In this document: positions 27,933 to 46,346 of the stretch, in pieces
How positions within the stretch are numbered: the first letter of the stretch is position 1
Layout: every line of letters starts with the position of its first letter
Assembly (NCBI RefSeq): GCF_004367585.1
Contig: NZ_CP038015.1
Location: 1,246,001-1,310,000, forward strand
Reading direction: 5' to 3'
Source of the DNA: Paenisporosarcina antarctica
Lineage (GTDB): Bacteria; Bacillota; Bacilli; Bacillales_A; Planococcaceae
Length of the DNA stretch: 64,000 nucleotides
Made by a program: the position numbers and the translations under genes
Notes under the pieces: generated by a model
Databases searched by the model: none
Seen by the model: the letters and a program-made list of their open reading frames with translations, nothing else
What the model was told of the DNA's origin: nothing

Positions 27933-28571
27933 ATGCGTTTTTCAAAAAAATTCTCAAAGTTTTCTTATACACTTGCAATTTTACATGGTTTTTTAATTGG
28001 TGCCGTTTCAATTGGATTATTTGCAATTATGATTCAGTGGCAAGATCTTGCTGTTGAGGCCCCCGCACCAACCGCAACTGACACAGAAACACCTGAAAAA
28101 ATGGAGTCTGTAGATGCTCCAGCAAATACCGCAACAGACAATCAATTCTATGCGAAGCAATATGGGGTATTTACTGGTGCTGAAGGTGCTTCTGCTCTAC
28201 TACAATCAACTCCAGCTATGAAAACAGCTGCACTCATTATGGCGGAAGGTCAATATTATGTATGGTCAGAGGCGAGTGTTGTGGAAAGTGACGTGAAAAT
28301 TGTGGGAAGCACTGATTCTTTTAGTAAACCATTTAAAATTAATGCGTCTGCATGTAAAGAACAGGCACTGCAAAAACTGCCCATTTATCTTACACATCCA
28401 GACCCATCAAAATTTAATTTTGAGAGTACGAAAAATACAGGGGCAATTCCAAAGGATTGGGAAACCAATATTACCGCTATATCAACACTTTCGAAAGATG
28501 TCAACGTCATCCGTGTACAGCTTTTATCGCATTATTTGTCTCAAAATAACTGCCTCAAAATTGAATTTTAG
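27933..28571 (+). CDS. spoIIB: SpoIIB-like sporulation membrane protein
   Basis: A 212-residue bitopic protein with a basic N-terminus, one membrane helix (about 15-37), and a Thr/Pro/Ala/Glu-rich linker. A SPOR-like region follows (FYAKQYGVFTGAEGASALL, then AALIMAEGQYYVWSEA), the kind of domain that binds denuded septal peptidoglycan. Its place between comC and maf is exactly that of B. subtilis spoIIB, which helps septal-wall hydrolysis at engulfment. The sequence itself is weakly conserved. ATG 27933 is chosen because GGGGTG lies before it; a longer frame from 27879 overlaps the terminator. Confidence 0.75.
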   Translation: MRFSKKFSKFSYTLAILHGFLIGAVSIGLFAIMIQWQDLAVEAPAPTATDTETPEKMESVDAPANTATDNQFYAKQYGVFTGAEGASALLQSTPAMKTAALIMAEGQYYVWSEASVVESDVKIVGSTDSFSKPFKINASACKEQALQKLPIYLTHPDPSKFNFESTKNTGAIPKDWETNITAISTLSKDVNVIRVQLLSHYLSQNNCLKIEF

Positions 28572-35914: not shown

Positions 35915-36712
35915 GTGGGAGAAGCAATCGTAATTACTTCAGGTAAGGGAGGCGTTGGCAAAACAACGACAACGGCTAACCTTGGGACTGCATTGGCACT
36001 TCAAGGAAAAAGAGTTTGTTTAATCGATACCGATATCGGCTTACGTAACCTAGACGTTGTGCTTGGTTTAGAAAACCGCATCATTTATGATTTGGTTGAC
36101 GTAATCGAAGGTCGTTGTAAAGTGCATCAAGCTTTAGTTAAAGATAAGCGTTTTGATGATAAATTATTCCTACTTCCAGCAGCTCAAACGACAGATAAAA
36201 ACGCTATTAATCCTGAACAAATGAAAGAACTCGTATCAGAATTAAAACGTGATTATGATTATGTCCTCATTGACTGTCCTGCAGGTATTGAACAAGGTTA
36301 CAAAAATGCAGTGGCAGGAGCAGATCGTGCAATCGTCGTCACGACACCTGAAATTTCGGCAGTGCGTGATGCGGATCGTATCATTGGCTTGCTTGAGCAA
36401 GAAGATATTGCACCTCCAAAATTAATCATTAACCGTATTCGTCAACATTTAATGAAAGCTGGCGATGCGTTAGATGTCAATGAGATTACGACGCACTTAT
36501 CAATTGATTTACTTGGTATCGTAATGGATGATGAAAGTGTTATTACATCTTCTAATAAAGGTGAACCCATTGTTATGGACCCAACTAAACGAGCAGCTCA
36601 AGGCTACCGCAACATTGCCCGTCGTATTTTAGGCGAATCTGTTCCTTTAATGTCGATGGACATAAAACGCAAAAACGTATTTTCTAGAATACTAGAAGTT
36701 CTTACTAAATAA
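35915..36712 (+). CDS. minD: septum site-determining ATPase MinD
   Basis: A 265-residue ParA-type ATPase that holds MinC at the membrane. It has the deviant Walker A SGKGGVGKTTTTANLG at 9-24, the switch region, Walker B YVLIDCPAGIE near 117, and a C-terminal amphipathic membrane-targeting helix (KRKNVFSRILEVLTK). The GTG start at 35915 follows AGGAGGAAG. It is the last gene of the mre-min operon and is followed by a terminator. Confidence 0.96.
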   Translation: MGEAIVITSGKGGVGKTTTTANLGTALALQGKRVCLIDTDIGLRNLDVVLGLENRIIYDLVDVIEGRCKVHQALVKDKRFDDKLFLLPAAQTTDKNAINPEQMKELVSELKRDYDYVLIDCPAGIEQGYKNAVAGADRAIVVTTPEISAVRDADRIIGLLEQEDIAPPKLIINRIRQHLMKAGDALDVNEITTHLSIDLLGIVMDDESVITSSNKGEPIVMDPTKRAAQGYRNIARRILGESVPLMSMDIKRKNVFSRILEVLTK

Positions 36713-36720
36713 ATTAGCTG

Positions 36721-36757
36721 AATCCCTCACTTTTTAAACTAGTGGGGGATTTTTTTA
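36721..36757 (+). terminator. mre-min operon terminator
   Basis: AATCCCTCACT and AGTGGGGGATT arms with one wobble pair, followed by a T run. Confidence 0.9.
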
Positions 36758-36779
36758 GGGGGAGATTAGACTGAATAAT

Positions 36780-37742
36780 TTGAAAACATACGAATTAAGC
36801 GTTTTACGGATTAGTATATTAAATTCACGCACAGAATGTAACTTGAAAGCTAAGCAGAGTTATCGAAATGTGAAAGCGGGATTTTCGGGTGAAGAGAAAG
36901 TAATGAAGTATCTGGAAGAAGCCCGACTAACATCTAAAGTTGAAATTTATCGAAATGTCGTGTTAGATCATGTGCAAATTGATGTCATTGTTGTGACGCC
37001 AAAGTTAATATGCATTTTGGAAGTGAAAAATATGAAAGGTGAATTTTATTTTGATCCCATCACGCAACAATTTTATCGGATAATTGATGGAAACAAAGAA
37101 GGCATGAGAAATCCAGAACTTCAATTGCAACGTGCAGTGAAACTTTTACAGGCAAGGCTTCATCGCAAAGAATTGGAAATGCCTGTTAAAGGTCTGATCG
37201 TGTTTGCGAGTCGAGCTGGGATTGTTATTAAACCACCAACACTTTTTCCAGCAATTCCAATCGATGCCGTGTGCGATTCACTTGAACGGATGGAAGCGAT
37301 GAGTCAAAAATTGATGACAACTGAAGAAATGAAAAAAGTAAAACACAGTTTGAAACAAAACTCCATTCCGGTTCATGATGATGAGTTATTGGAGAGACTC
37401 GGAATTGAGCGCGTTATGATTCTCACAGGTGTGAGATGCATGTCATGTTTTTGCGTCGGAATGCAACGAATTTATTCGACATGGCTGTGCGGTAGTTGTG
37501 GTTGTCGAGATAAGAATGCACATATGGCAACTTTGCAAGAATATCAACTGCTTTTTGGGCGACAAATTACAAGTAAAGATGTGATGTGGTGGTTGGGGAT
37601 TGAGGACAAACACTTGGTAAAACGCGTCCTCAAACAAATGTCTGAAGATAGTATGGGGACCAATCGTAGTCGACACTATAAATTGAAATTTGAACCATGG
37701 TTACTGTCGCATTTTTTAGCAACAGAAATGAAGAAATTTTAG
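36780..37742 (+). CDS. NERD-domain protein (putative nuclease-related)
   Basis: A 320-residue protein with an N-terminal NERD domain, a PD-(D/E)xK-like fold. The sequence AGFSGEEKVMKYLEE, then NVVLDHVQIDVIVVTPKLICILEVKNMKGEF carries the expected Asp and Glu-x-Lys pattern (about 33-95). Four cysteines in CMSCFCVGM and CGSCGC (about 221-243) may bind zinc. The last residues LSHFLATEMKKF match the conserved start of the 260-bp repeats that follow, so the 3' end appears to overlap or derive from the repeat. The start is TTG 36780, or CTG 36771, which has a better distance from GGGGGAGA. This gene is inserted between minD and spoIVFA. Function unknown. Confidence 0.75.
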   Translation: MKTYELSVLRISILNSRTECNLKAKQSYRNVKAGFSGEEKVMKYLEEARLTSKVEIYRNVVLDHVQIDVIVVTPKLICILEVKNMKGEFYFDPITQQFYRIIDGNKEGMRNPELQLQRAVKLLQARLHRKELEMPVKGLIVFASRAGIVIKPPTLFPAIPIDAVCDSLERMEAMSQKLMTTEEMKKVKHSLKQNSIPVHDDELLERLGIERVMILTGVRCMSCFCVGMQRIYSTWLCGSCGCRDKNAHMATLQEYQLLFGRQITSKDVMWWLGIEDKHLVKRVLKQMSEDSMGTNRSRHYKLKFEPWLLSHFLATEMKKF

Positions 37743-38424
37743 GTTACAATTGGTTAGTTGCCTCAGTTGGACAGAAAGTTATCCCAGTGAGCATCAGAGT
37801 TGCCTCAGTCAGACAAAAAGTTGCTCCATTTACAACAAAAGTTGCAATAATGATAGTGAAAGTTGGTTTACAACCAGAAAAAACAAATGGTTCATTTCGC
37901 TTTGCTCTGTTTTCGAGCAGTGTCGCTCTATTATGAGTGGGAGAGTTGTAACAATAAGAATAGAGTTACTGGGGCATTTTTTAGTAACAGAAATGAATGG
38001 ATTTTTAGGAGACAATTGGTTAGTTGCCTCAGTTACCCCAGTGAGCATCAGAGTTGCCTCAGTCGGACAGAAAGTTGCTCCATTTACAACAAAAGTTGCA
38101 ACAATAATAGTGAAAGTTGCTTTACAACCACAAAAAACAAATGGTTCATTTCGCTTTGCTCTGTTTTCGAGCAGTGTCGCTCTATTATGAGTGGGAGAGT
38201 TGTAACAATAAGAATAGAGTTACTGGAGCATTTTTTAGCAACAGAAATGAAGAAATTTTAGGAGACAATTGGTTAGTTGCCCCAGTTGGACAGAAAGTTA
38301 CCCCAGTGAGCGTCAGAGTTGTCTCAGTCGGACAGAGAGTTGCTCCATTTACAACAAAAGTTGCCTCAGTCAGACAAAAAGTTGCTCCATTTATATCAAA
38401 AGTTGCGCTAGTCGCCCAAAATCC
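37690..38424 (+). repeat. nested repeat: 21-bp units within about 260-bp tandem units
   Basis: Three long units start near 37690, 37970 and 38225. Each opens with GCATTTTTTAGCAACAGAAA, passes through a GACAATTGGTTA block, and then holds a run of 21-bp units beginning GTTG or GTTA. Units start at 37757, 37778, 37799, 37820, 37841 and 37862 (copy 1); 38032, 38053, 38074, 38095 and 38116 after a truncated unit at 38023 (copy 2); and 38276, 38297, 38318, 38339, 38360, 38381 and 38402 (copy 3). In copies 1 and 2 the run ends in ACAAATGGTTCATTTCGC and a TGCTCTGTTTTCGAGCAG block. One frame reads 7-residue units such as VASVGQK and VAPFTTK. There are no unique spacers, so it is not CRISPR. Overlapping chance frames are not called as genes. 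Confidence 0.85.
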
Positions 38425-38500
38425 ATTGAATAATTCATCTTTTCAGCCTGTAATCTCTAGTTACCAAACTGCATATACTACCCGAAAAGGGGGCTGCGGC

Positions 38501-39064
38501 ATGAAATCTGCACAAAAATGGATCATGGCATGCATTTTCACCGTTGGCATCATCGCAATTATTCAAATACAAGAACAAGATGGTCAAACTTCAAAACTTC
38601 GCACAGTGTTCACTCAAGGGAGAGACCTTCAAATAGCTCGCGAATTCGTACTCGCTCAACTTCCGTCAACTTGGCAATCTGAGCTAATTCCTGTCGTAGC
38701 AATGCAGGAACAAGACCCTATGATTCCCACGATGGCGACGTACGAATCGATGCAACCGTATGAAAATGGAGTGATTGTTTCTTACACTACACAGATAAAA
38801 GTATTTGCTCGGGAAGATGGCATCATTCTGTTTACTGGACATACGCGTCACACGGGAAAAACGATGACGGTTCTTTATAATAGCGGGGATATCGTGACGT
38901 ATGGATTTGTAGAAAACTTTTCGAATTTACCGTATACAGCAGTGTCAGCAAAAGATTTAATTGCAGAAGTGAAACCGGGATCGATGTATGTGAAAGTAGA
39001 ACGAGGAGGTAAAAGCCTCGATTCGTCTGCAGTCACAGAATGGATGAAGGATGTACTTTACTAA
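38501..39064 (+). CDS. spoIVFA: sporulation membrane protein SpoIVFA-like
   Basis: A 187-residue bitopic protein with a membrane helix (7-22) and a degenerate LytM/M23-like domain (about 85-165: YENGVIVSYTTQIKVFAREDGIILFTG, then GKTMTVLYNSGDIVTYGFVENF). It lacks the metal-binding residues, as SpoIVFA does. In B. subtilis SpoIVFA holds and inhibits the SpoIVFB protease in the outer forespore membrane. The position between minD and spoIVFB supports the call. ATG 38501 follows AAAAGGGGGC; upstream frame is repeat sequence. It overlaps spoIVFB by 14 bp. It is shorter than the B. subtilis protein. Confidence 0.82.
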   Translation: MKSAQKWIMACIFTVGIIAIIQIQEQDGQTSKLRTVFTQGRDLQIAREFVLAQLPSTWQSELIPVVAMQEQDPMIPTMATYESMQPYENGVIVSYTTQIKVFAREDGIILFTGHTRHTGKTMTVLYNSGDIVTYGFVENFSNLPYTAVSAKDLIAEVKPGSMYVKVERGGKSLDSSAVTEWMKDVLY

Positions 39065-39650
39065 TATTCGACTACATCCAATCATGCTGCCTATTATTAT
39101 TTACCTCATTGCTACTGCGCAACTCGCACATTATAGTATTATTTTTGGTTCTTTACTCATTCACGAACTAGGACATATTACAGCGGCTAAATGGACGGGT
39201 CTCAAAATGACGAGTTGCACAATTCTTCCGTATGGAGGAGAAATTAAGATAAAGAATCTCTATCTTGCTCCTCCTCATCAACAATGGCTAATTGCCATTG
39301 CTGGTCCACTGGCTACATCTATCCTTTATTTAGGCGCGCAATTTTTTGATTTTCCTGGACAAGCTTTTTTTAATCAAGTCCAGTTGACTATACTTGCGTT
39401 AAACTTACTTCCAATATTGCCCTTAGACGGGGGACAAGCCTTAAGATCTATAATTCCAAAACGCCACCACCATACACATTTAGCGATTTCAATTTGCGCA
39501 TCGACATTGCTGATTTTAGTTACATATAACCAACCTCATCTAACTTTCATTTTTGCATTTATCGCATTTCAAAATATTCGTTCGTGGCAGTATCGAAAAT
39601 ACGAAGAAGCTTATTATAAAATTGTTACGAAGCAGTTGACGCTCCCATAG
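39051..39650 (+). CDS. spoIVFB: site-2 protease SpoIVFB (pro-sigma-K processing)
   Basis: A 199-residue membrane metalloprotease. HELGH at 38-42 is the zinc site, and NLLPILPLDGG near 118-128 gives the third ligand. There are about five to six membrane segments. In Bacilli it cleaves pro-sigma-K late in sporulation. The C-terminal CBS domain present in B. subtilis SpoIVFB is missing here; the protein ends soon after the last helix. The start overlaps spoIVFA, so the two are coupled. The rplU promoter lies in its last codons. Confidence 0.88.
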   Translation: MYFTNIRLHPIMLPIIIYLIATAQLAHYSIIFGSLLIHELGHITAAKWTGLKMTSCTILPYGGEIKIKNLYLAPPHQQWLIAIAGPLATSILYLGAQFFDFPGQAFFNQVQLTILALNLLPILPLDGGQALRSIIPKRHHHTHLAISICASTLLILVTYNQPHLTFIFAFIAFQNIRSWQYRKYEEAYYKIVTKQLTLP

Positions 39651-39664
39651 AGTTATGGTAAAAT
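39636..39664 (+). promoter_or_regulatory. rplU operon promoter
   Basis: TTGACG at 39636-39641 and TAAAAT at 39659-39664 with an ideal 17-bp spacer, overlapping the end of spoIVFB. Confidence 0.8.
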
Positions 39665-39674
39665 ATTAATGTTA

Positions 39675-39779
39675 TTGTTTGTAGCACCCGTGCTACTACA
39701 ACCGCTCTGAAGAGGTTAAAGTATCTGCAAAGATCACCTCATTTTAAGGCGAGTCTTAGTCTAATAGGAGGTGCAGTAA
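39675..39779 (+). promoter_or_regulatory. ribosomal protein L21 leader
   Basis: The untranslated leader contains TTGTAGCACCCGTGCTACTAC as a hairpin, an AACCGCTCTGAAGAGGTTAAA hairpin and a GATCACCTCATTTTAAGGCGAGTC block (positions 39678-39755). This is the known L21-leader pattern of Firmicutes, where L21 is thought to repress its own operon. Identification is from memory of the motif, not from a covariance search. Confidence 0.75.
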
Positions 39780-39780
39780 A

Positions 39781-40089
39781 ATGTACGCAATTATCGAAAC
39801 TGGTGGTAAACAAGTCAAAGTAGAAAAAGGTCAAGAAATTTACATCGAATTATTAGATGTGAATGCTGAGGACGTTTTTACATTTGATAAAGTATTATTC
39901 GTAGGTGGAGACAACGTGAAAGTTGGCGTTCCTTTCGTGGAAGGTGCAACAGTTAAAGCAACAGTCGTGAAAAACGGCCGCGCTAAAAAAATCACAGTTT
40001 TCAAATATAAAGCTAAAAAGAACTACCGTCGTAAACAAGGTCATCGTCAGCCTTACACAAAACTTGTGATTGATTCGATCAATCTGTAA
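39781..40089 (+). CDS. rplU: 50S ribosomal protein L21
   Basis: A 102-residue protein starting [18 protein letters not shown] and ending with the [16 protein letters not shown] signature, which binds 23S rRNA. An AGGAGGTG site precedes ATG. It is the first gene of rplU-prp-rpmA. Confidence 0.98.
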
Positions 40090-40101
40090 GATGTGTAAAA
40101 T

Positions 40102-40440
40102 ATGATACAAGTAACGATTGAAAAAGATCAATCTGATCACATTTGTTCTTTTGAAATGAAGGGCCATGCAGATTTTGCTGAGCATGGAAAAGATTTAGTG
40201 TGTGCAGCCGCAACTGCTGTTTCTTTTGGAGCAGTAAATGCAATCGTTGAACTTACAAAAGTCATTCCTGACGTTAAGCAAGGGCAAGACGGAGGATTTC
40301 TCAAAGTCTCGTTTTCTCAGAACCTAGTTCCAAAAACAAATGAACAGGTACAATTAATTGTACAAGCGATGATTGTTTCTTTACAAACGATTGAACAAGA
40401 TTATGGACAACATATAAAAATAACCCTTCAAAAAAAGTAG
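40102..40440 (+). CDS. prp: ribosomal-processing cysteine protease Prp
   Basis: A 112-residue protein (YsxB family) that removes the N-terminal extension of L27. The catalytic pair is His in MKGHADFAEHG near residue 22 and Cys in KDLVCAAATAVSFG near 34. It lies between rplU and rpmA as in most Firmicutes. The L27 encoded downstream carries the matching cleavage motif. Confidence 0.95.
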   Translation: MIQVTIEKDQSDHICSFEMKGHADFAEHGKDLVCAAATAVSFGAVNAIVELTKVIPDVKQGQDGGFLKVSFSQNLVPKTNEQVQLIVQAMIVSLQTIEQDYGQHIKITLQKK

Positions 40441-40455
40441 GAGGTGGAACAGATG

Positions 40456-40746
40456 ATGTTAAGATTAGATCTTCAGTTTTTCGCATCGAAAAAAGGAGTA
40501 GGTTCGACCCGTAACGGTCGTGACTCACAATCAAAACGCCTTGGCGCTAAACGCGCTGATGGTCAATTCGTATCGGGTGGCTCAATTTTATACCGTCAAC
40601 GCGGTACTAAAATTCACCCGGGTGAAAACGTAGGCCGTGGTGGAGATGACACACTTTTTTCAAAAGTTGACGGAATTGTACGCTTTGAGCGTTATGGCCG
40701 TGACAAGAAAAAAGTTAGTGTATATCCTGTAGCTCAAGAAGCTTAA
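40456..40746 (+). CDS. rpmA: 50S ribosomal protein L27, with Prp-cleaved leader
   Basis: A 96-residue L27. Its N-terminus [16 protein letters not shown] has the FFA-SKK site cut by Prp, exposing the residues that reach the peptidyl transferase centre. [24 protein letters not shown] is the core signature (positions 41-64). ATG 40456 is chosen with AGGAGGTGG upstream; ATG 40453 and GTG 40444 are also in frame. A strong terminator follows. Confidence 0.97.
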
Positions 40747-40757
40747 TTCAAACAGCC

Positions 40758-40786
40758 AAAGGACTGCATAACTGCAGTCCTTTTTC
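40758..40786 (+). terminator. rplU-prp-rpmA terminator
   Basis: AAAGGACTGCA and TGCAGTCCTTTTT form a perfect hairpin with a T run. Confidence 0.92.
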
Positions 40787-40970
40787 TTTTTATTAAAAAA
40801 CTAATATGTGCAAAGTGTGTCTAGCTCAATCGCGGTTCGTTTAGCTATTAAGACTTCGAACTCAAACTGTATAACTAGAGCTGAGCTTTGTACTTTTAAT
40901 ATTTGCAATAAAATCGCATCATTTCTTTGTATACAAAGGAAATGACATTAGCATAATGGAGAGTGTGCAC

Positions 40971-41501
40971 ATGACCGACAAACCGTTTTCAGTAAATGAG
41001 GCATTGCGATTTGCACGGCATGATTTTTTAAATCAGTTGCAGCTTATCAAGATGAATATTGATCTTGCACGACTGGAAGAGGCGAAAGCGGCCATTGATC
41101 ATTACACCTCAGAAGTTAAAGCGATTTATGAATTAACTAAGTTAAACATACCGTTCACTTCAGAGTGGTTACAAACCGCAAATTGGCGTTTTTTAGGATT
41201 TCAATTCAATATTACGAGTCATATTGAAACTTCGTGTAACGAATCTTTAGATGAACAAATTTATAATGTGCTTGACCAAGCAACGAATTTGTTGCATAAC
41301 CAGTTAGATCCATTTGTGGAACAACAATTGCATATTCATATTGTAAGTATCCCGTCTGAATTTAGAATCACCTTTGAAGCAACTGGACAATGGGAATCAA
41401 TAGCACAAGAAATTTCATGCGAACCACAAGTTACACTGACCCATGAATGTAAAACGACCAAGAAATGGCGTTTTCATATAGAAGAAAGCAAGGAGGGATA
41501 G
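40971..41501 (+). CDS. spo0B: sporulation phosphotransferase Spo0B
   Basis: A 176-residue histidine phosphotransferase of the sporulation phosphorelay. It passes phosphate from Spo0F to Spo0A. The phosphorylated His is His17 within ARHDFLNQLQLIKMNIDL, forming the first helix of the dimer bundle. The C-terminal part is a degenerate kinase-like ATPase fold. ATG 40971 is preferred with GGAGAGTG six bases upstream over ATG 40956. It is followed 3 bp later by obg, as in B. subtilis. Confidence 0.9.
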   Translation: MTDKPFSVNEALRFARHDFLNQLQLIKMNIDLARLEEAKAAIDHYTSEVKAIYELTKLNIPFTSEWLQTANWRFLGFQFNITSHIETSCNESLDEQIYNVLDQATNLLHNQLDPFVEQQLHIHIVSIPSEFRITFEATGQWESIAQEISCEPQVTLTHECKTTKKWRFHIEESKEG

Positions 41502-41504
41502 TCT

Positions 41505-42794
41505 ATGTTTGTCGATCACGTAAAGATAGCCATAAAAGGCGGAGATGGCGGCGATGGTATGGTCGCGTTTCGTCGAGAAAAGTATGTACCAAATGGTGGA
41601 CCTGCAGGCGGAGATGGTGGACGCGGAGGTAGCGTAATTTTTGAAGTTGAAGAAGGATTACGTACATTAATGGATTTCCGTTACAAACGATTCTTTAAAG
41701 CAAATCGTGGAGATCACGGGCAAAGTAAAAATATGCACGGACGTGGTGCAGAAGATTTAATTATTAAAGTTCCACCTGGTACAGTTGTAATGACTGGAGA
41801 GAGTGGACCGGTTTTAGCTGATTTAGTAGAACATGGTCAACAGGCTGTAATTGCTAAAGGTGGACGAGGAGGACGTGGAAACTCACGCTTTACAACACCA
41901 CAAAACCCAGCACCAGAGATTGCTGAAAAAGGCGAACCTGGCCAAGAAATCGAAATCTTTTTAGAGTTAAAAGTATTAGCTGACGTTGGTTTAGTTGGAT
42001 TCCCAAGTGTTGGTAAATCAACCATATTATCTGTTGTATCTGCAGCGAAACCTAAAATTGCTGCTTATCACTTCACAACAATTGTTCCGAATTTAGGAAT
42101 GGTTGAAACGACAGATGGCCGTGGCTTTGCTATGGCAGATTTGCCAGGTCTTATTGAAGGGGCTAGCCAAGGTATTGGTCTTGGTCATCAGTTCTTACGT
42201 CATATTGAACGTACACGAGTTATTGTACATGTAATCGATATGTCTGGAATTGAAGGACGCGATGCTTATGAGGACTATGTAACAATTAACGAAGAACTTC
42301 GTCAATATAACTTGCGTCTAACTGAACGTCCACAATTAGTGGTTGCAAATAAGATGGATATGCCTGATTCTGAAGAAAACTTAGCAGAATTCCGAAAGAA
42401 ATTACCGGAAGATGTGAAGATTTTCCCGATTTCGGCACTTTCACGTAAAGGCTTAAACGAACTTTTATTCGCAATTGCCGATTTACTAGAAGTGACGGAA
42501 GACTTCGTTATTAACGAAATGACTGCAGAAGAATCAGACAAAACGGTTCTTTACAAACACCAATCTGCTGGTGATGGTTTCAAAGTTACGCGTGATGACG
42601 ATGGGGCATTTGTATTGAGCGGTTCATCAATCGAGCGCTTATTCAAAATGACTGATTTCTCTCGTGAAGATACAATTCGTCGTTTTGCACGTCAACTTCG
42701 CGGAATGGGTGTTGATGAAGCACTTCGGGAAAATGGCGCTGAAAATGGAGATATTGTTAGACTTCTTGAGTTCGAGTTTGAATTCATCGAATAG
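41505..42794 (+). CDS. obgE: GTPase Obg
   Basis: A 429-residue GTPase tied to late 50S assembly and, in Bacillus, to sporulation and stress signalling. It has the Gly-rich N-terminal Obg fold (1-158), P-loop GFPSVGKST near 165, [12 protein letters not shown] switch II, NKMD near 283, and a C-terminal OCT domain (about 350-429). The order spo0B-obg-pheB-pheA is conserved. Confidence 0.98.
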
Positions 42795-42809
42795 AAAGGG
42801 AGGATGGAT

Positions 42810-43265
42810 ATGAAAGACGTATCTGAACAACGATATTTTTTAGTACGTGAAGATGTGTTGACGGAAGCGATGCAAAAAACGCTTGATGCCAAGCATTTGT
42901 TGCAAAGTGGAGAAGTCGCGTCAATTTGGGACGCGGTAAAAAAAGTGGACTTATCACGTAGCGCTTTTTATAAATATCGAGATGCCGTCTTTCCCTTCCA
43001 TTCCATTGTTCGTGAACGAATTTTGACTGTGTTTCTACAACTAGAGGATCGAAATGGAACACTGGCCACATTGCTACATACAGTAGCACAGGTGCAATGT
43101 AATGTTTTGACCATCCATCAAACAATTCCTATTCAAGGGCGCGCAAATGTGACACTTTCACTAGATGTAACTGCTATGAATGTACAATTAGATGATTTTA
43201 TTCAACAATTAAAACGTTTAGATTTTGTGGAGTCAGCGGAAGTTATTAGCTCTGGCGCATCTTAA
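42810..43265 (+). CDS. pheB: ACT domain-containing protein PheB
   Basis: A 151-residue protein of the UPF0735 family. It has a short helix-turn-helix-like N-terminus and a C-terminal ACT domain (VFLQLEDRNGTLATLLHTVAQVQCNVLTI). It is encoded before prephenate dehydratase and may sense an aromatic amino acid. ATG 42810 has AAAGGGAGG at the right distance; ATG 42804 is too close. It ends 12 bp before pheA. Confidence 0.9.
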   Translation: MKDVSEQRYFLVREDVLTEAMQKTLDAKHLLQSGEVASIWDAVKKVDLSRSAFYKYRDAVFPFHSIVRERILTVFLQLEDRNGTLATLLHTVAQVQCNVLTIHQTIPIQGRANVTLSLDVTAMNVQLDDFIQQLKRLDFVESAEVISSGAS

Positions 43266-43277
43266 GGAGTGACTTAC

Positions 43278-44150
43278 ATGGGAAAACAAGCCTTCGAATC
43301 ACGTGTTGCTTATTTAGGACCAGAAGCATCCTTTACACATTTAGCGGCAGGTGAAGCATTCGCAGGTGAGTGGTTAATGCCTTATACGACGATTCCAGAA
43401 TGCATTGAAGCAGTGTCCAATGGTGAAGTTGAATTTGCTGTTGTTCCGCTTGAAAATGCATTGGAAGGATCTGTACCTTTAACCCTTGACTATTTGTTTC
43501 ACGATGTAGAATTGCATGTTTGTGCAGAAATTTTATCGCCGATTGAGCAACATTTTATGGTTCATCCTGAGCAAGTAGTGAACAAAGAAGATATCAAAAT
43601 GGTATTATCGCATCCTCACGCACTCGCACAGTGTCATAAATATTTGTATTACCGCTTTCGTGGAGTACCTCTTGAGCAGACAACTTCGACTGCAGCTGCA
43701 GCGAAATATGTGTCTGAACATCCAGAACTTACGATAGCTGCTATCGGCAATGATTTTTCCGCCAAAAAATACGGCTTAACAATTGTTGAGGCGAATATTC
43801 ACGATTTTCATTTCAATCATACTCGATTTTTTGTCCTTCAAAAGGCGAATCTCAAGCTTGATAAAAAAGGTCATGACGAAACGCCAAAAACTACACTTAT
43901 GATTACGTTGCCAGTGGACGATCGATCCGGTGCACTGCACCAAGTGTTGTCCGTATTTGCATGGCGCCAGTTGAATTTAAGTAAAATAGAATCACGGCCG
44001 TTAAAAACAGGACTTGGCCACTATTTCTTTATCGTGGATGTCCAAGAAGATGAACAAACACCGATGATGCTAGGAGCGATAGAAGAATTACGTGCTTTAG
44101 GGTGCGCAGTGAAATCTCTCGGGACATATTTTACATACAAAAAGGAATGA
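43278..44150 (+). CDS. pheA: prephenate dehydratase
   Basis: A 290-residue enzyme turning prephenate into phenylpyruvate in phenylalanine synthesis. The catalytic domain (5-185) has VAYLGPEASFTHLAA, the PLENALEGSVPLTLDYL segment and the TTSTAAAAKYV motif. A C-terminal regulatory ACT domain follows (GALHQVLSVFAWRQLNLSKIESRP), which binds phenylalanine. ATG 43278 has AAGGAG eight bases upstream. A hairpin terminator begins within the last codons. Confidence 0.96.
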   Translation: MGKQAFESRVAYLGPEASFTHLAAGEAFAGEWLMPYTTIPECIEAVSNGEVEFAVVPLENALEGSVPLTLDYLFHDVELHVCAEILSPIEQHFMVHPEQVVNKEDIKMVLSHPHALAQCHKYLYYRFRGVPLEQTTSTAAAAKYVSEHPELTIAAIGNDFSAKKYGLTIVEANIHDFHFNHTRFFVLQKANLKLDKKGHDETPKTTLMITLPVDDRSGALHQVLSVFAWRQLNLSKIESRPLKTGLGHYFFIVDVQEDEQTPMMLGAIEELRALGCAVKSLGTYFTYKKE

Positions 44151-44180
44151 ATGCATACTATGCGTCCATTCCTTTTTTAT
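44139..44180 (+). terminator. pheA terminator
   Basis: AAAAAGGAATG and CATTCCTTTTTT arms with a 17-nt loop and T run, overlapping the pheA stop. Confidence 0.85.
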
Positions 44181-44194
44181 TTTGGTGATATTGT

Positions 44195-44525
44195 AGTGAT
44201 TTTTCGTCCGACTGAGGCAACTTTATGTCTGACTGAGTCAACTTTCCGTTCCACTGTGGCAACTTTGGCTCTAACTAGGTCAACTTTCTATCCGAATGGG
44301 GCAACTAACCAATTACCTCCTAATTTTAAAAATACCCCAATCACTATGAAAGCCAATAAGCTAAAAAAGACCTATCTCTGCACGAAAACAGAGCGCAGCG
44401 AAAAAGTCCACCAGGCTTTTGTGTTTTTTTGTGATGTAGTGGAAACTTTTACTGTAAATGTGGCAACTTTCCGTCCGATTGAGGCAACTTTGACGCTCAA
44501 TGTGGCAAATAACCAATAATCTCCT
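44195..44525 (-). repeat. 21-bp repeat arrays, second locus (inverted orientation)
   Basis: On the minus strand this shows the same layout as the 37.7-38.4 kb locus. AATTGGTTAGTTGCC is followed by 21-bp units starting GTTG, then AACACAAAAGCC and a GCTCTGTTTTCGTGCAG block. In plus coordinates the CAAC unit ends fall at 44221, 44242, 44263, 44284 and 44305 (first array) and at 44467 and 44488 (second array). The units are diverged from the first locus, so the element is dispersed and old, not a recent local copy. It fills the pheA-niaR gap. No gene was seen. Confidence 0.8.
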
Positions 44526-44532
44526 AAAACTC

Positions 44533-44577
44533 AAAAAAAGACTTGAATCACTATACAAGTGATTCAGGCCTTTTTTC
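44533..44577. terminator. bidirectional terminator between repeat array and niaR
   Basis: TGAATCACT and AGTGATTCA arms with an A run on one side and a T run on the other. It can end niaR transcripts on the minus strand and read-through on the plus strand. Confidence 0.85.
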
Positions 44578-44583
44578 CTGTGG

Positions 44584-45120
44584 TCAGTTTTCATCTGCTA
44601 AAAATCCTTTTCTGCGCATTCCTGCAATTGCAGTTTCTATGTAATCACTTGAAGTGGCTGCAATTAAATGTAAATGAATACCGTCTGTTAATTCGGATAA
44701 ATAGCTAGCTCCCGTTTCTTCTACCCGTGCTATGAATAAATCAACTTCATGTCGATTGGCCACCATTATGGATGCCGTTAATTCGCCGTACACAGGGTGT
44801 TCAACGGTGACGTTTTTCACCACCACACCTGAATCGACTAAGGTATACAATTCCTCTCTCGCATCGTCTGGTGCGTGCACACAAGCAATTTGACGTTCGA
44901 ACACGTGAGTTGTAGTCGATTTCTTAATATACACATAACCTTGACTCGTAGCTAATATTGGCTCATTACGAGCTTTTAATAATGTCATGTCTCCCACGAT
45001 TACTTGTCGGCTAACCCCGGACTCTTTCGCTAAATCAGTTCCTTTTATTGGATTGGTTGCCGTCTTTAACATGGCAAGTAATTGTTGGCGTCGTTCTTCA
45101 CCTAATAATTTCTTCAACAC
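44584..45120 (-). CDS. niaR: NAD biosynthesis transcriptional repressor NiaR
   Basis: A 178-residue nicotinate-sensing repressor (YrxA family). The N-terminal winged helix covers 1-55 (LAKESGVSRQVIVGDMTLLKA recognition region). The 3H domain has its conserved histidines in THVFERQIACVH, VEHPVYGEL and DGIHLHLIA. GTG 45120 or TTG 45117 are the likely starts, behind an AAAGGGCGGG stretch. In B. subtilis it is divergent from nifS-nadBCA. Those genes are absent here, and safA is the divergent neighbour, so its targets lie outside this window. Confidence 0.92.
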   Translation of the reverse strand: MLKKLLGEERRQQLLAMLKTATNPIKGTDLAKESGVSRQVIVGDMTLLKARNEPILATSQGYVYIKKSTTTHVFERQIACVHAPDDAREELYTLVDSGVVVKNVTVEHPVYGELTASIMVANRHEVDLFIARVEETGASYLSELTDGIHLHLIAATSSDYIETAIAGMRRKGFLADEN

Positions 45121-45242
45121 AATCCCGCCCTTTACATGCATAAGTCTTGCACTTGTTCTCATAGTTTATCATGTACACCAATTAAGTGACAAAATCAAAT
45201 CGTTATTCATAGGATACATAGATGATGAGAGGGGGAAGTATT

Positions 45243-46346
45243 TTGCACGTACATGTTGTGCAAAAAGGAGATACACTATGGAAAATTTCAAGACAGTATG
45301 GTGTATCTTTTGATGAAGTGAAACGTTTAAACGCGCATTTGGCAAATCCCGATTATATTGTGCCGGGTATGAAAATCTTTGTTCCTGAGAAGTCGACAAA
45401 AAAGCAAGAGATAAAAGATCACCCTTACGCTAACGATCGTCCTGTTAAAAATAACAAGGAGGAATACGTGCCTAAGGCATTACCAAAATCATTACCAAAA
45501 TCAATGCCGAAAGCAATGCCACAACCAATGCCACAACCAAAGCCATATCCACCGATGCAACCTATCCATATACACATGCCAGAACCAAAACAGCCACAAC
45601 CTATACCTCAACCGACCATGCAAATGCCACCACAAGTTTTTCAACAACCTATTAATCAACATTTGACAATGACACAAATGGTACCTCCATATATGGGAGT
45701 TCCTTATGGCTGGGTTCCTGTACCAGATATGGATGTTCATCAGCCACAAGTGCTGCCAACAACTCCACCAATACAGAAACCACAACCGAAACCACTACCG
45801 AAACATATACCTGCACCAAAACTCCCACAAGGTTGGCAATTAGATGACTCAAGTTCATTAGGAGATGTAGAATCATCGCTCCAAGTACCGCAGTTGTCAC
45901 CACAATATCAACAACCGCCATCACCATGTGGGCCACCACCACCAGAGTACTATCAACAACAACTACAACCGGAGTACTACGAAAACCAACAAGCGCCATC
46001 ACCATGCGGCCCTCCACCACCAGCTTATTATCAACACCAGCAACCGCCTTGCGGATGTGGACAGCCAAGTTATGCGCAACCAGCTAGTGGATATATGCCA
46101 CAACAAGGTCCTTCACCTGATGTCATGCAAGAAAGTGATGAAATGATGCATCACCCGAATATGATGCCACAACAAATGATGCATGATCCGAATATGATGC
46201 CGCAACAAATGATGCATGACCCGAATATGATGCCGCAACAAATGATGCCACACCATATGATGCCGTATATGAGATGCACTCCTTGTCATATGTTGCCCGC
46301 TCCACAAGGGCAATGGGGATATCCTACACCAGTTCGTTACTATTAA
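45243..46346 (+). CDS. safA: spore coat morphogenetic protein SafA
   Basis: A 367-residue protein. An N-terminal LysM domain (about 2-47: VHVVQKGDTLWKISRQYGVSFDEVKRLN through VPGMKIFVP) targets it to the cortex-coat interface. The remainder is Pro/Gln/Met/Tyr-rich. Near the end an 11-residue motif NMMPQQMMHDP is repeated three times (33-bp DNA repeats at 46155-46250). SafA organises the inner spore coat with SpoVID. TTG 45243 is preferred because GAGGGGG lies 7-8 bases before it and the start then aligns with other SafA proteins; ATG 45222 is a longer option. Low-complexity content makes several chance frames on both strands. Confidence 0.88.
   Translation: MHVHVVQKGDTLWKISRQYGVSFDEVKRLNAHLANPDYIVPGMKIFVPEKSTKKQEIKDHPYANDRPVKNNKEEYVPKALPKSLPKSMPKAMPQPMPQPKPYPPMQPIHIHMPEPKQPQPIPQPTMQMPPQVFQQPINQHLTMTQMVPPYMGVPYGWVPVPDMDVHQPQVLPTTPPIQKPQPKPLPKHIPAPKLPQGWQLDDSSSLGDVESSLQVPQLSPQYQQPPSPCGPPPPEYYQQQLQPEYYENQQAPSPCGPPPPAYYQHQQPPCGCGQPSYAQPASGYMPQQGPSPDVMQESDEMMHHPNMMPQQMMHDPNMMPQQMMHDPNMMPQQMMPHHMMPYMRCTPCHMLPAPQGQWGYPTPVRYY

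Follow-up and report, generated by a model that had tools for sequence, protein, structure and literature searches.

Plasmid iterons and ParR-type centromere arrays are direct repeats of about 20–22 bp that lie on one face of the helix and are bound cooperatively. The sites of LytTR regulators have the consensus WMMGTTNRK in repeats 21–22 bp apart. Enterobacterial REP/BIME clusters comprise many repeated sites per genome, located behind genes, the REP sequences being palindromes. In STAR elements of Staphylococcus the core is T(G/A/T)TGTTG(G/T)GGCCC(C/A), and successive cores are separated by 40 bp or more (PMC3532100). BOX elements of Streptococcus pneumoniae combine a fixed end module with tandem units that vary in number; boxC closes the element, for which an RNA fold is predicted (PMC3049150).

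In the window (the whole stretch of 64,000 nucleotides of Paenisporosarcina antarctica DNA that was analyzed), three plus-strand arrays at 37.7–38.4 kb and two minus-strand arrays at 44.2–44.5 kb have in common the conserved leader AATTAGGAGNNAATTGGTTA, which is followed by 21-bp units beginning GTTGCC. These arrays resemble STAR elements as intergenic direct repeats of unknown function with a short core, differing spacers and a variable unit number (PMC3532100). They differ in that their period is 20–21 bp, a leader precedes the units, cores are of many kinds and some loci are common to species. The STAR core TGTTGNGGCCC has one match in the window, at 28052, and none in the arrays, and the distance of 20–21 bp from core to core falls below the spacing of at least 40 bp between STAR cores. 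STAR elements are the nearest in description, failing on core and spacing, and BOX elements are the nearest in modular build. The latter share the end module with a variable number of units (here, leader plus units) and the enrichment between convergent genes; in contrast to BOX as described there, folding is not general here and the units keep two helical turns (PMC3049150). By inspection, no common sequence follows the last unit that could correspond to a closing module. Like REP/BIME clusters, the arrays supply many sites per genome behind genes, but as asymmetric direct repeats (the AAC core excepted). With iterons and ParR arrays they share asymmetric, helix-phased direct repeats and the protein binding that we infer here, whereas they are dispersed along the chromosome behind unrelated genes, and among the genes next to the arrays of the window we saw none for replication or partition. 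By inspection against the LytTR consensus, the spacing of about 21 fits and the core AAAGTTGCC fits only in part. The unit of only 20–21 bp, with a variable part of about 5 bases, is unlike that of a CRISPR array, where unique spacers separate near-identical repeats of similar length and cas genes accompany the array.

Organization of the arrays in the window

The two loci contain the following elements, in order of coordinates.

36780–37742, plus strand: NERD-domain gene (PF08378), its stop codon TAG inside the first leader
37737–37756, plus strand: leader 1, degraded, TTTTAGGTTACAATTGGTTA
37757–37882, plus strand: array 1, six 21-bp units
37898–37920, plus strand: spacer block CGCTTTGCTCTGTTTTCGAGCAG, first copy, which by inspection could form a hairpin
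37965–38008, plus strand: NERD 3' end, second copy, within the tandem duplication of about 254 bp
38003–38022, plus strand: leader 2
38023–38136, plus strand: array 2, one shortened and five full units
38152–38174, plus strand: spacer block CGCTTTGCTCTGTTTTCGAGCAG, second copy
38219–38261, plus strand: NERD 3' end, third copy
38256–38275, plus strand: leader 3
38276–38422, plus strand: array 3, seven units
43269–44150, plus strand: pheA-like gene, convergent to array b
44201–44305, minus strand: array b, five units, next to the end of the convergent pheA-like gene
44306–44325, minus strand: leader b
44378–44400, minus strand: spacer block CGCTGCGCTCTGTTTTCGTGCAG, diverged copy of the block at 37898
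44426–44509, minus strand: array a, four units
44510–44529, minus strand: leader a, degraded
44544–44566, minus strand: hairpin resembling a terminator, behind niaR, with a T-run after it that ends 3 nt before the leader
44584–45162, minus strand: niaR-like regulator gene with 3H and HTH_11 domains

The first-pass annotation had described three long units with 21-bp units nested inside, and both TRF and direct reading bear this out. TRF reports a repeat at 37700–38364 (period 254, 2.5 copies) with nested 21/42-bp arrays, as well as 21-bp arrays at 44202–44306 and 44439–44508; by reading, the plus-strand copies hold six units, five plus one shortened unit, and seven units, and the minus-strand arrays four and five. 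Also as described earlier, copies 1 and 2 end in the spacer block (at 37898 and 38152) while copy 3 runs into unique sequence, the genes upstream are of the NERD and niaR-like types, and a diverged set lies on the minus strand. The order of this set, i.e., array, spacer block, leader, array, parallels that on the plus strand, with the diverged block between the two arrays. Since about 40 bp of the NERD gene 3' end recur in each long unit (37700, 37965, and 38219), the unit of about 254 bp is a local tandem duplication. A separate conserved leader opens each array, degraded at 37737 and 44529.

A mechanical ORF at 38117–39064 starts within array 2 and continues into a gene that weakly matches M23. 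This gene probably begins at the ATG at 38501, and annotation may therefore absorb the array into the protein. A LysM-type protein (identified by eye) at 45222–46346 contains a 33-bp tandem repeat at 46141–46248, which, unlike the arrays, is a true coding repeat.

Further copies in the genus and family

The earlier proposal hinged on the existence of further copies, and these were found. In the same genome, a DNA search finds 12 places, and the leader pattern with at most three mismatches has 12 matches vs. none for the reversed pattern. Across 261 genomes of the family, the leader is present in six, all of them among the nine of the genus Paenisporosarcina, and the reversed-leader control has a single match, in G233. 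The exact leader is present in the named records Paenisporosarcina HGH0030, TG20, P. quisquiliarum, and one Thermotogales MAG; the last (L066) was rejected as an array, being a leader-like word without units. Some stretches of G074 and G072 are identical to HGH0030 and P. quisquiliarum, and the G073 stretches examined are identical to TG20.

A leader-free pattern of three AGTTGCNNC cores 20–21 bp apart matches 12 of the 261 genomes, namely, seven of the nine in the genus plus G002, G004, G008, G101, and G177, and its reversed control matches once, in G260. Outside the genus, the matches in G002, G008, and G101 were read as arrays, and those in G004 and G177 were not counted as such. Bare pattern matches occur in 114 stretches of viral contigs, and window positions 38240–38424 have no match in plasmids and phages at E 0.001. 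Among titles and abstract openings of largely open-access literature, no paper names this array type.

Two loci of G073 (L041 and L221) contain tandem modules of about 260–320 bp, each consisting of a terminator-like hairpin, a leader and a 20-bp array; like the duplication in the window, the L041 modules are located behind NERD. At L227 (G002) and L229 (G008), a AGTTGCAAC array adjoins an opposite-strand 20-bp array with another core, ATGCTGTAAG.

Among the first suggestions was a mobile non-coding element. The dispersed copies support a non-coding interspersed element, although several sites are common to species and not freshly mobile: more than one species carries an array behind NERD, behind niaR, and behind other genes.

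Structure of the repeat unit

The unit consists of a conserved site of 14–15 bp followed by about 5 looser bases. The nine genomes counted yield 186 steps from one core to the next, of which 86 measure 20 bp, 99 measure 21 bp and one measures 24 bp. The count allowed steps of 17–24 and up to one mismatch per core in arrays with three or more cores, covered retrieved loci only (the G073 arrays in part) and left out broken units, e.g., the first of array 2. The 20-bp steps account for 49 of 60 in G073 and 17 of 17 in G008, and they also occur in G002 and in G072, where steps of both lengths are mixed (counts of 15 and 12); G000, G074, G075, and G076 have 21 bp only.

Column information is high in AGTTGCNNC, which the search required, and conservation is also seen where the search made no demand, at N-A-A-T after AGTTGCNNC and at the final AA. 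Unit positions 15–17 hold 0–0.5 bits in G071–G075, except for 0.2–1.3 bits in 11 CCC-type units of G073; the picture is less clear in G000 (0.5–0.9 bits) and G008 (0.4–1.5 bits).

Twelve pairs of orthologous loci, not all of them independent, differ at 3 of 333 core positions (0.9%), 6 of 228 leader positions and 35 of 185 gap positions (19%), the gap values being inflated where units were shuffled. The flanks of these pairs differ by 4–7%, with 51 of 720 substitutions downstream and 65 of 909 upstream, the latter including the ill-aligned pair L040–L032 (28/58) and falling to 37 of 851 without it. If the copies homogenize one another, the core could look as though it were under purifying selection, which counts against reading it as a binding site.

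The core type differs between species at shared loci. Behind NERD it is of the CCC type in G073 (first array), G074, and G075, TCC in G072, GAC in G071, and a mixture of CCC, CTC, and TCC in G000. Behind niaR, we observed CCC, CTC, and CAC in G000, TCC (with one TCT) in G072 and G074, and GAC in G076, with no array within the 330 nt examined in G077 and G070. Even the near relatives G074 and G075 differ in unit make-up at one locus (e.g., L052 vs. L053). Two core types are found in each of G072 and G073; hence, any switch of core type is incomplete within a genome.

Coding potential, RNA folding, and DNA curvature

The arrays might be translated into a heptad peptide or, as the first-pass annotation had considered, be the remnant of a heptad-repeat gene; the leader would then serve as a ribosome site with a TTG or ATG start. 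AGGAG is present within the leader, the leader codon at position 13 (counted from 0) is TTG in 58, ATG in three and TTT in one of 62 leaders, and the frame from this codon has a median of 39 codons. This explanation is nevertheless hardly credible. The unit length is not always a multiple of three, with 20-bp units in G073, G072, G002, and G008; changes between orthologs show no codon rhythm (28, 18, and 24 of 259 at the three positions); a Pfam search with the 79-aa frame gave no match; and nine of the 62 leader frames stop within 12 codons. Further, only 4 nt separate AGGAG from TTG in the leader, which is short for a start site.

A structured RNA, likewise proposed at first, is not supported as something common to the arrays. 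Where the core is the self-complementary AAC type (GTTGCAAC), z < -2 is reached on all 15 plus strands and on 14 of the 15 minus strands, whereas the other 38 arrays reach this level on 3 plus and 7 minus strands, with mean z of -0.36 and -0.41, on average no better than controls. Folding thus stems from the core. Among all 110-nt stretches, z < -2 was observed for 17 (plus) and 19 (minus) of 62, and among exact arrays for 21 (plus) and 19 (minus) of 55. An Rfam search of 36000–46000 at the gathering score found nothing in the arrays; the only sequence to pass was an ordinary ribosomal protein L21 leader RNA (RF00559) at 39690–39766.

More generally, the transcribed arrays could act at the RNA level, whether by offering an RNA-binding protein repeated sites, by folding or by loading Rho. 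In 31 of the 40 clusters with a determined orientation, the leader arrays read in the sense direction of the upstream gene, the AGTTGCCCC units are C-rich and the AAC-core arrays fold strongly, all of which agree with such a role. However, RNA has no need of exact 20–21 spacing, the arrays with other cores do not, on average, fold better than controls, part of the arrays sit past a terminator and Rho loading is an ill fit to the G- and A-rich core variants. We therefore consider an RNA-level element unlikely.

A purely mechanical element, in which any sequence with a 21-bp repeat would curve the DNA within a single plane and selection acts on curvature only, would account for the two-turn spacing of the units. 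It appears very improbable, since the cores are conserved as sequence and the bend predicted with wedge values is not above that of column-permuted arrays (mean rank 0.53 for 32 arrays; 0.39 against plain shuffles).

A wider class of phased arrays

The leader arrays are one family within a wider class of arrays phased at 20–21 bp with various cores. We surveyed 200 kb each of G000, G008, G052, and G080 and 80 kb of ten more genomes of the family, the stretches of G000, G008, and G052 being picked around known arrays and the other eleven arbitrary. A triple-repeat region was defined as one with a 7-mer occurring three times at equal spacing, with periods of 11–45 allowed; the shuffle control for the arrays of the wider class preserves single-base composition only. 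Such regions were found in eight of the 14 genomes, and in five of the eleven arbitrary stretches (G070, G007, G018, G067, and G248). The sampled stretches of G075, G080, G101, G132, G150, and G183 contain none, and G075, G080, and G101 have arrays outside them. The 38 triple-repeat intergenic regions include 28 with a period of 20–21.5 and eight with 41.5–42.5; the two off-period ones (12 and 37) are both in G000.

The cores of these arrays are GTTGTAA, TCCCGTT, and TCGGCTT in G000, GAAAGATC, GAATGAC, TCGAGCAC, and GTGACGA in G008, ACTAAA and GTCGCC in G018, and TTATTC in G067. Counts of 6-mer lags have peaks at 21, 42, and 63 in G000 (239, 179, and 106 vs. a median of 15) and G008 (214, 166, and 84 vs. 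a median of 7), and at 20 in G070 (59 vs. a median of 5). The 21-bp lag is at most twice the median in five of the 14 family samples (G080, G101, G132, G150, and G183). Five Bacilli of other families have no triple-repeat region; a weak 21-bp signal may exist there, the lag-21 counts of 8–11 exceeding the medians of 3–6. No lag-21 match was found in 50 kb of E. coli. Other intergenic lags, 67 in G052 (L278–L287) and 61 in G007 (L316–L319), are probably separate repeats.

The second family, GTTGTAA, has 51 matches in G000 and 0–7 in each of the other eight genomes of the genus, with nine matches of the reversed control in G070 and one in G077. Over 19 arrays, each of units 1 to 4 has a consensus of its own, as in copied elements, and this therefore supports spread by copying. 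Pairing of neighboring gaps in this family (GGAGG vs. CCTCC) was not above position-matched partner shuffles in a test on 48 of the 51 rows, the three at 2857474–2857516 being left out as a different variant.

Intergenic regions with an array number 12 of 139 between convergent genes and 3 of 175 between divergent genes, an enrichment of convergent over divergent regions (p = 0.006); between tandem genes they number 9 of 219 and 7 of 279. For the class as a whole, regions touching any gene 3' end (28/637) were not significantly richer in arrays than divergent regions (3/175; p = 0.12).

The main rival to a host function is a parasitic or neutral interspersed repeat, similar to BOX, STAR or MITE, that is copied into tolerant space behind genes and whose units turn over by slippage. 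The dispersed copies with a fixed leader fit this description, as do the gain and loss of units between close relatives at one locus (L052, L053, and L035) and, as the best evidence, the unit-specific sequences of the GTTGTAA family that recur at many loci. So does the convergent enrichment, which for pneumococcal repeats is argued to be a mark of tolerated parasites (PMC3049150). On the other hand, the occupation of the same positions in several species, the low substitution rate of the core relative to the flanks, and the phasing at 20–21 bp across unrelated cores speak against a mere parasite. We regard this explanation as possible but doubtful.

Placement relative to genes and a model of array function

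The 62 distinct leaders form 42 clusters by upstream sequence. With all gene calls being simple ORF calls, the preceding gene has the same orientation as the leader in 31 clusters and the opposite one in nine, with two undetermined (p = 0.0007). The leader starts 51–66 nt after the stop codon in 10 of the 31 same-direction clusters, and in G000, G072, G073, G074, and G075 the leader itself supplies the TAG stop codon of NERD. A terminator is present within 110 nt upstream of the leader in 18 of the 42 clusters, at 18–39 nt in 15 of these 18, compared with 3 of 42 control windows 200–310 nt downstream, which may contain coding sequence. We do not claim a fixed terminator–leader distance that would match the footprint of RNA polymerase, a possibility we considered, because the distances spread from 3 to 59.

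We suggest, with about even confidence for and against, that the arrays are phased sites for one or more putative sequence-specific DNA-binding proteins, most likely cooperative and most likely acting as a boundary. Asymmetric DNA sites of 14–15 bp would stand in rows two helical turns apart, so that every site would face one side of the helix, and the putative protein would most likely bind them cooperatively. The bound array would then most likely stop or stall read-through RNA polymerase between neighboring genes; alternatively, it may organize the supercoiled DNA between them. A boundary role is suggested by the leader family being located mainly behind genes in the gene direction, and partly shortly past a terminator. 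Computation supplies the site-plus-gap anatomy, the 20–21 bp spacing, how well core and leader are conserved, where the leader family lies, the positions common to species, and the families with other cores in this and related genomes; protein binding, cooperativity, and the boundary role are what we infer. The periods of 36 of the 38 triple-repeat regions argue for phased sites.

Several observations count against this model. A genome with several core families would require a protein for each or a single tolerant one, convergent enrichment is also expected of tolerated parasites, and the RNA folding of AAC-core arrays is unneeded in a pure DNA mechanism. The 24 of 42 upstream clusters in which the terminator test was negative, the five family samples with a weak 21-bp lag and the non-significant 3'-end comparison of the whole class also weigh against it.

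A bolder extension of the phased-site model, which we put forward as speculative and rather improbable, is that phased binding arrays would occupy much of the intergenic space of many Planococcaceae and insulate neighboring transcription units from one another. The site sequence prevailing at a given locus would differ between species, with AGTTGC followed by CCC, GAC, AAC, or TCC, as expected if protein and sites co-evolve. The 200-kb sample of the P. antarctica genome contains 13 array regions, scaling to approximately 250 per genome, which is an upper guess because the sample was chosen around three known arrays.

If the phased-site model is right, these bacteria would carry, throughout the chromosome, a layer of phased sites close to transcription boundaries, which annotation can mistake for small ORFs, and the two-turn spacing predicts a protein that reads one helix face. 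Even if parasitic, the arrays would represent a repeat class with an unusual length rule. Finally, the different cores at shared loci of related species would constitute a natural experiment in the co-evolution of sites and protein.
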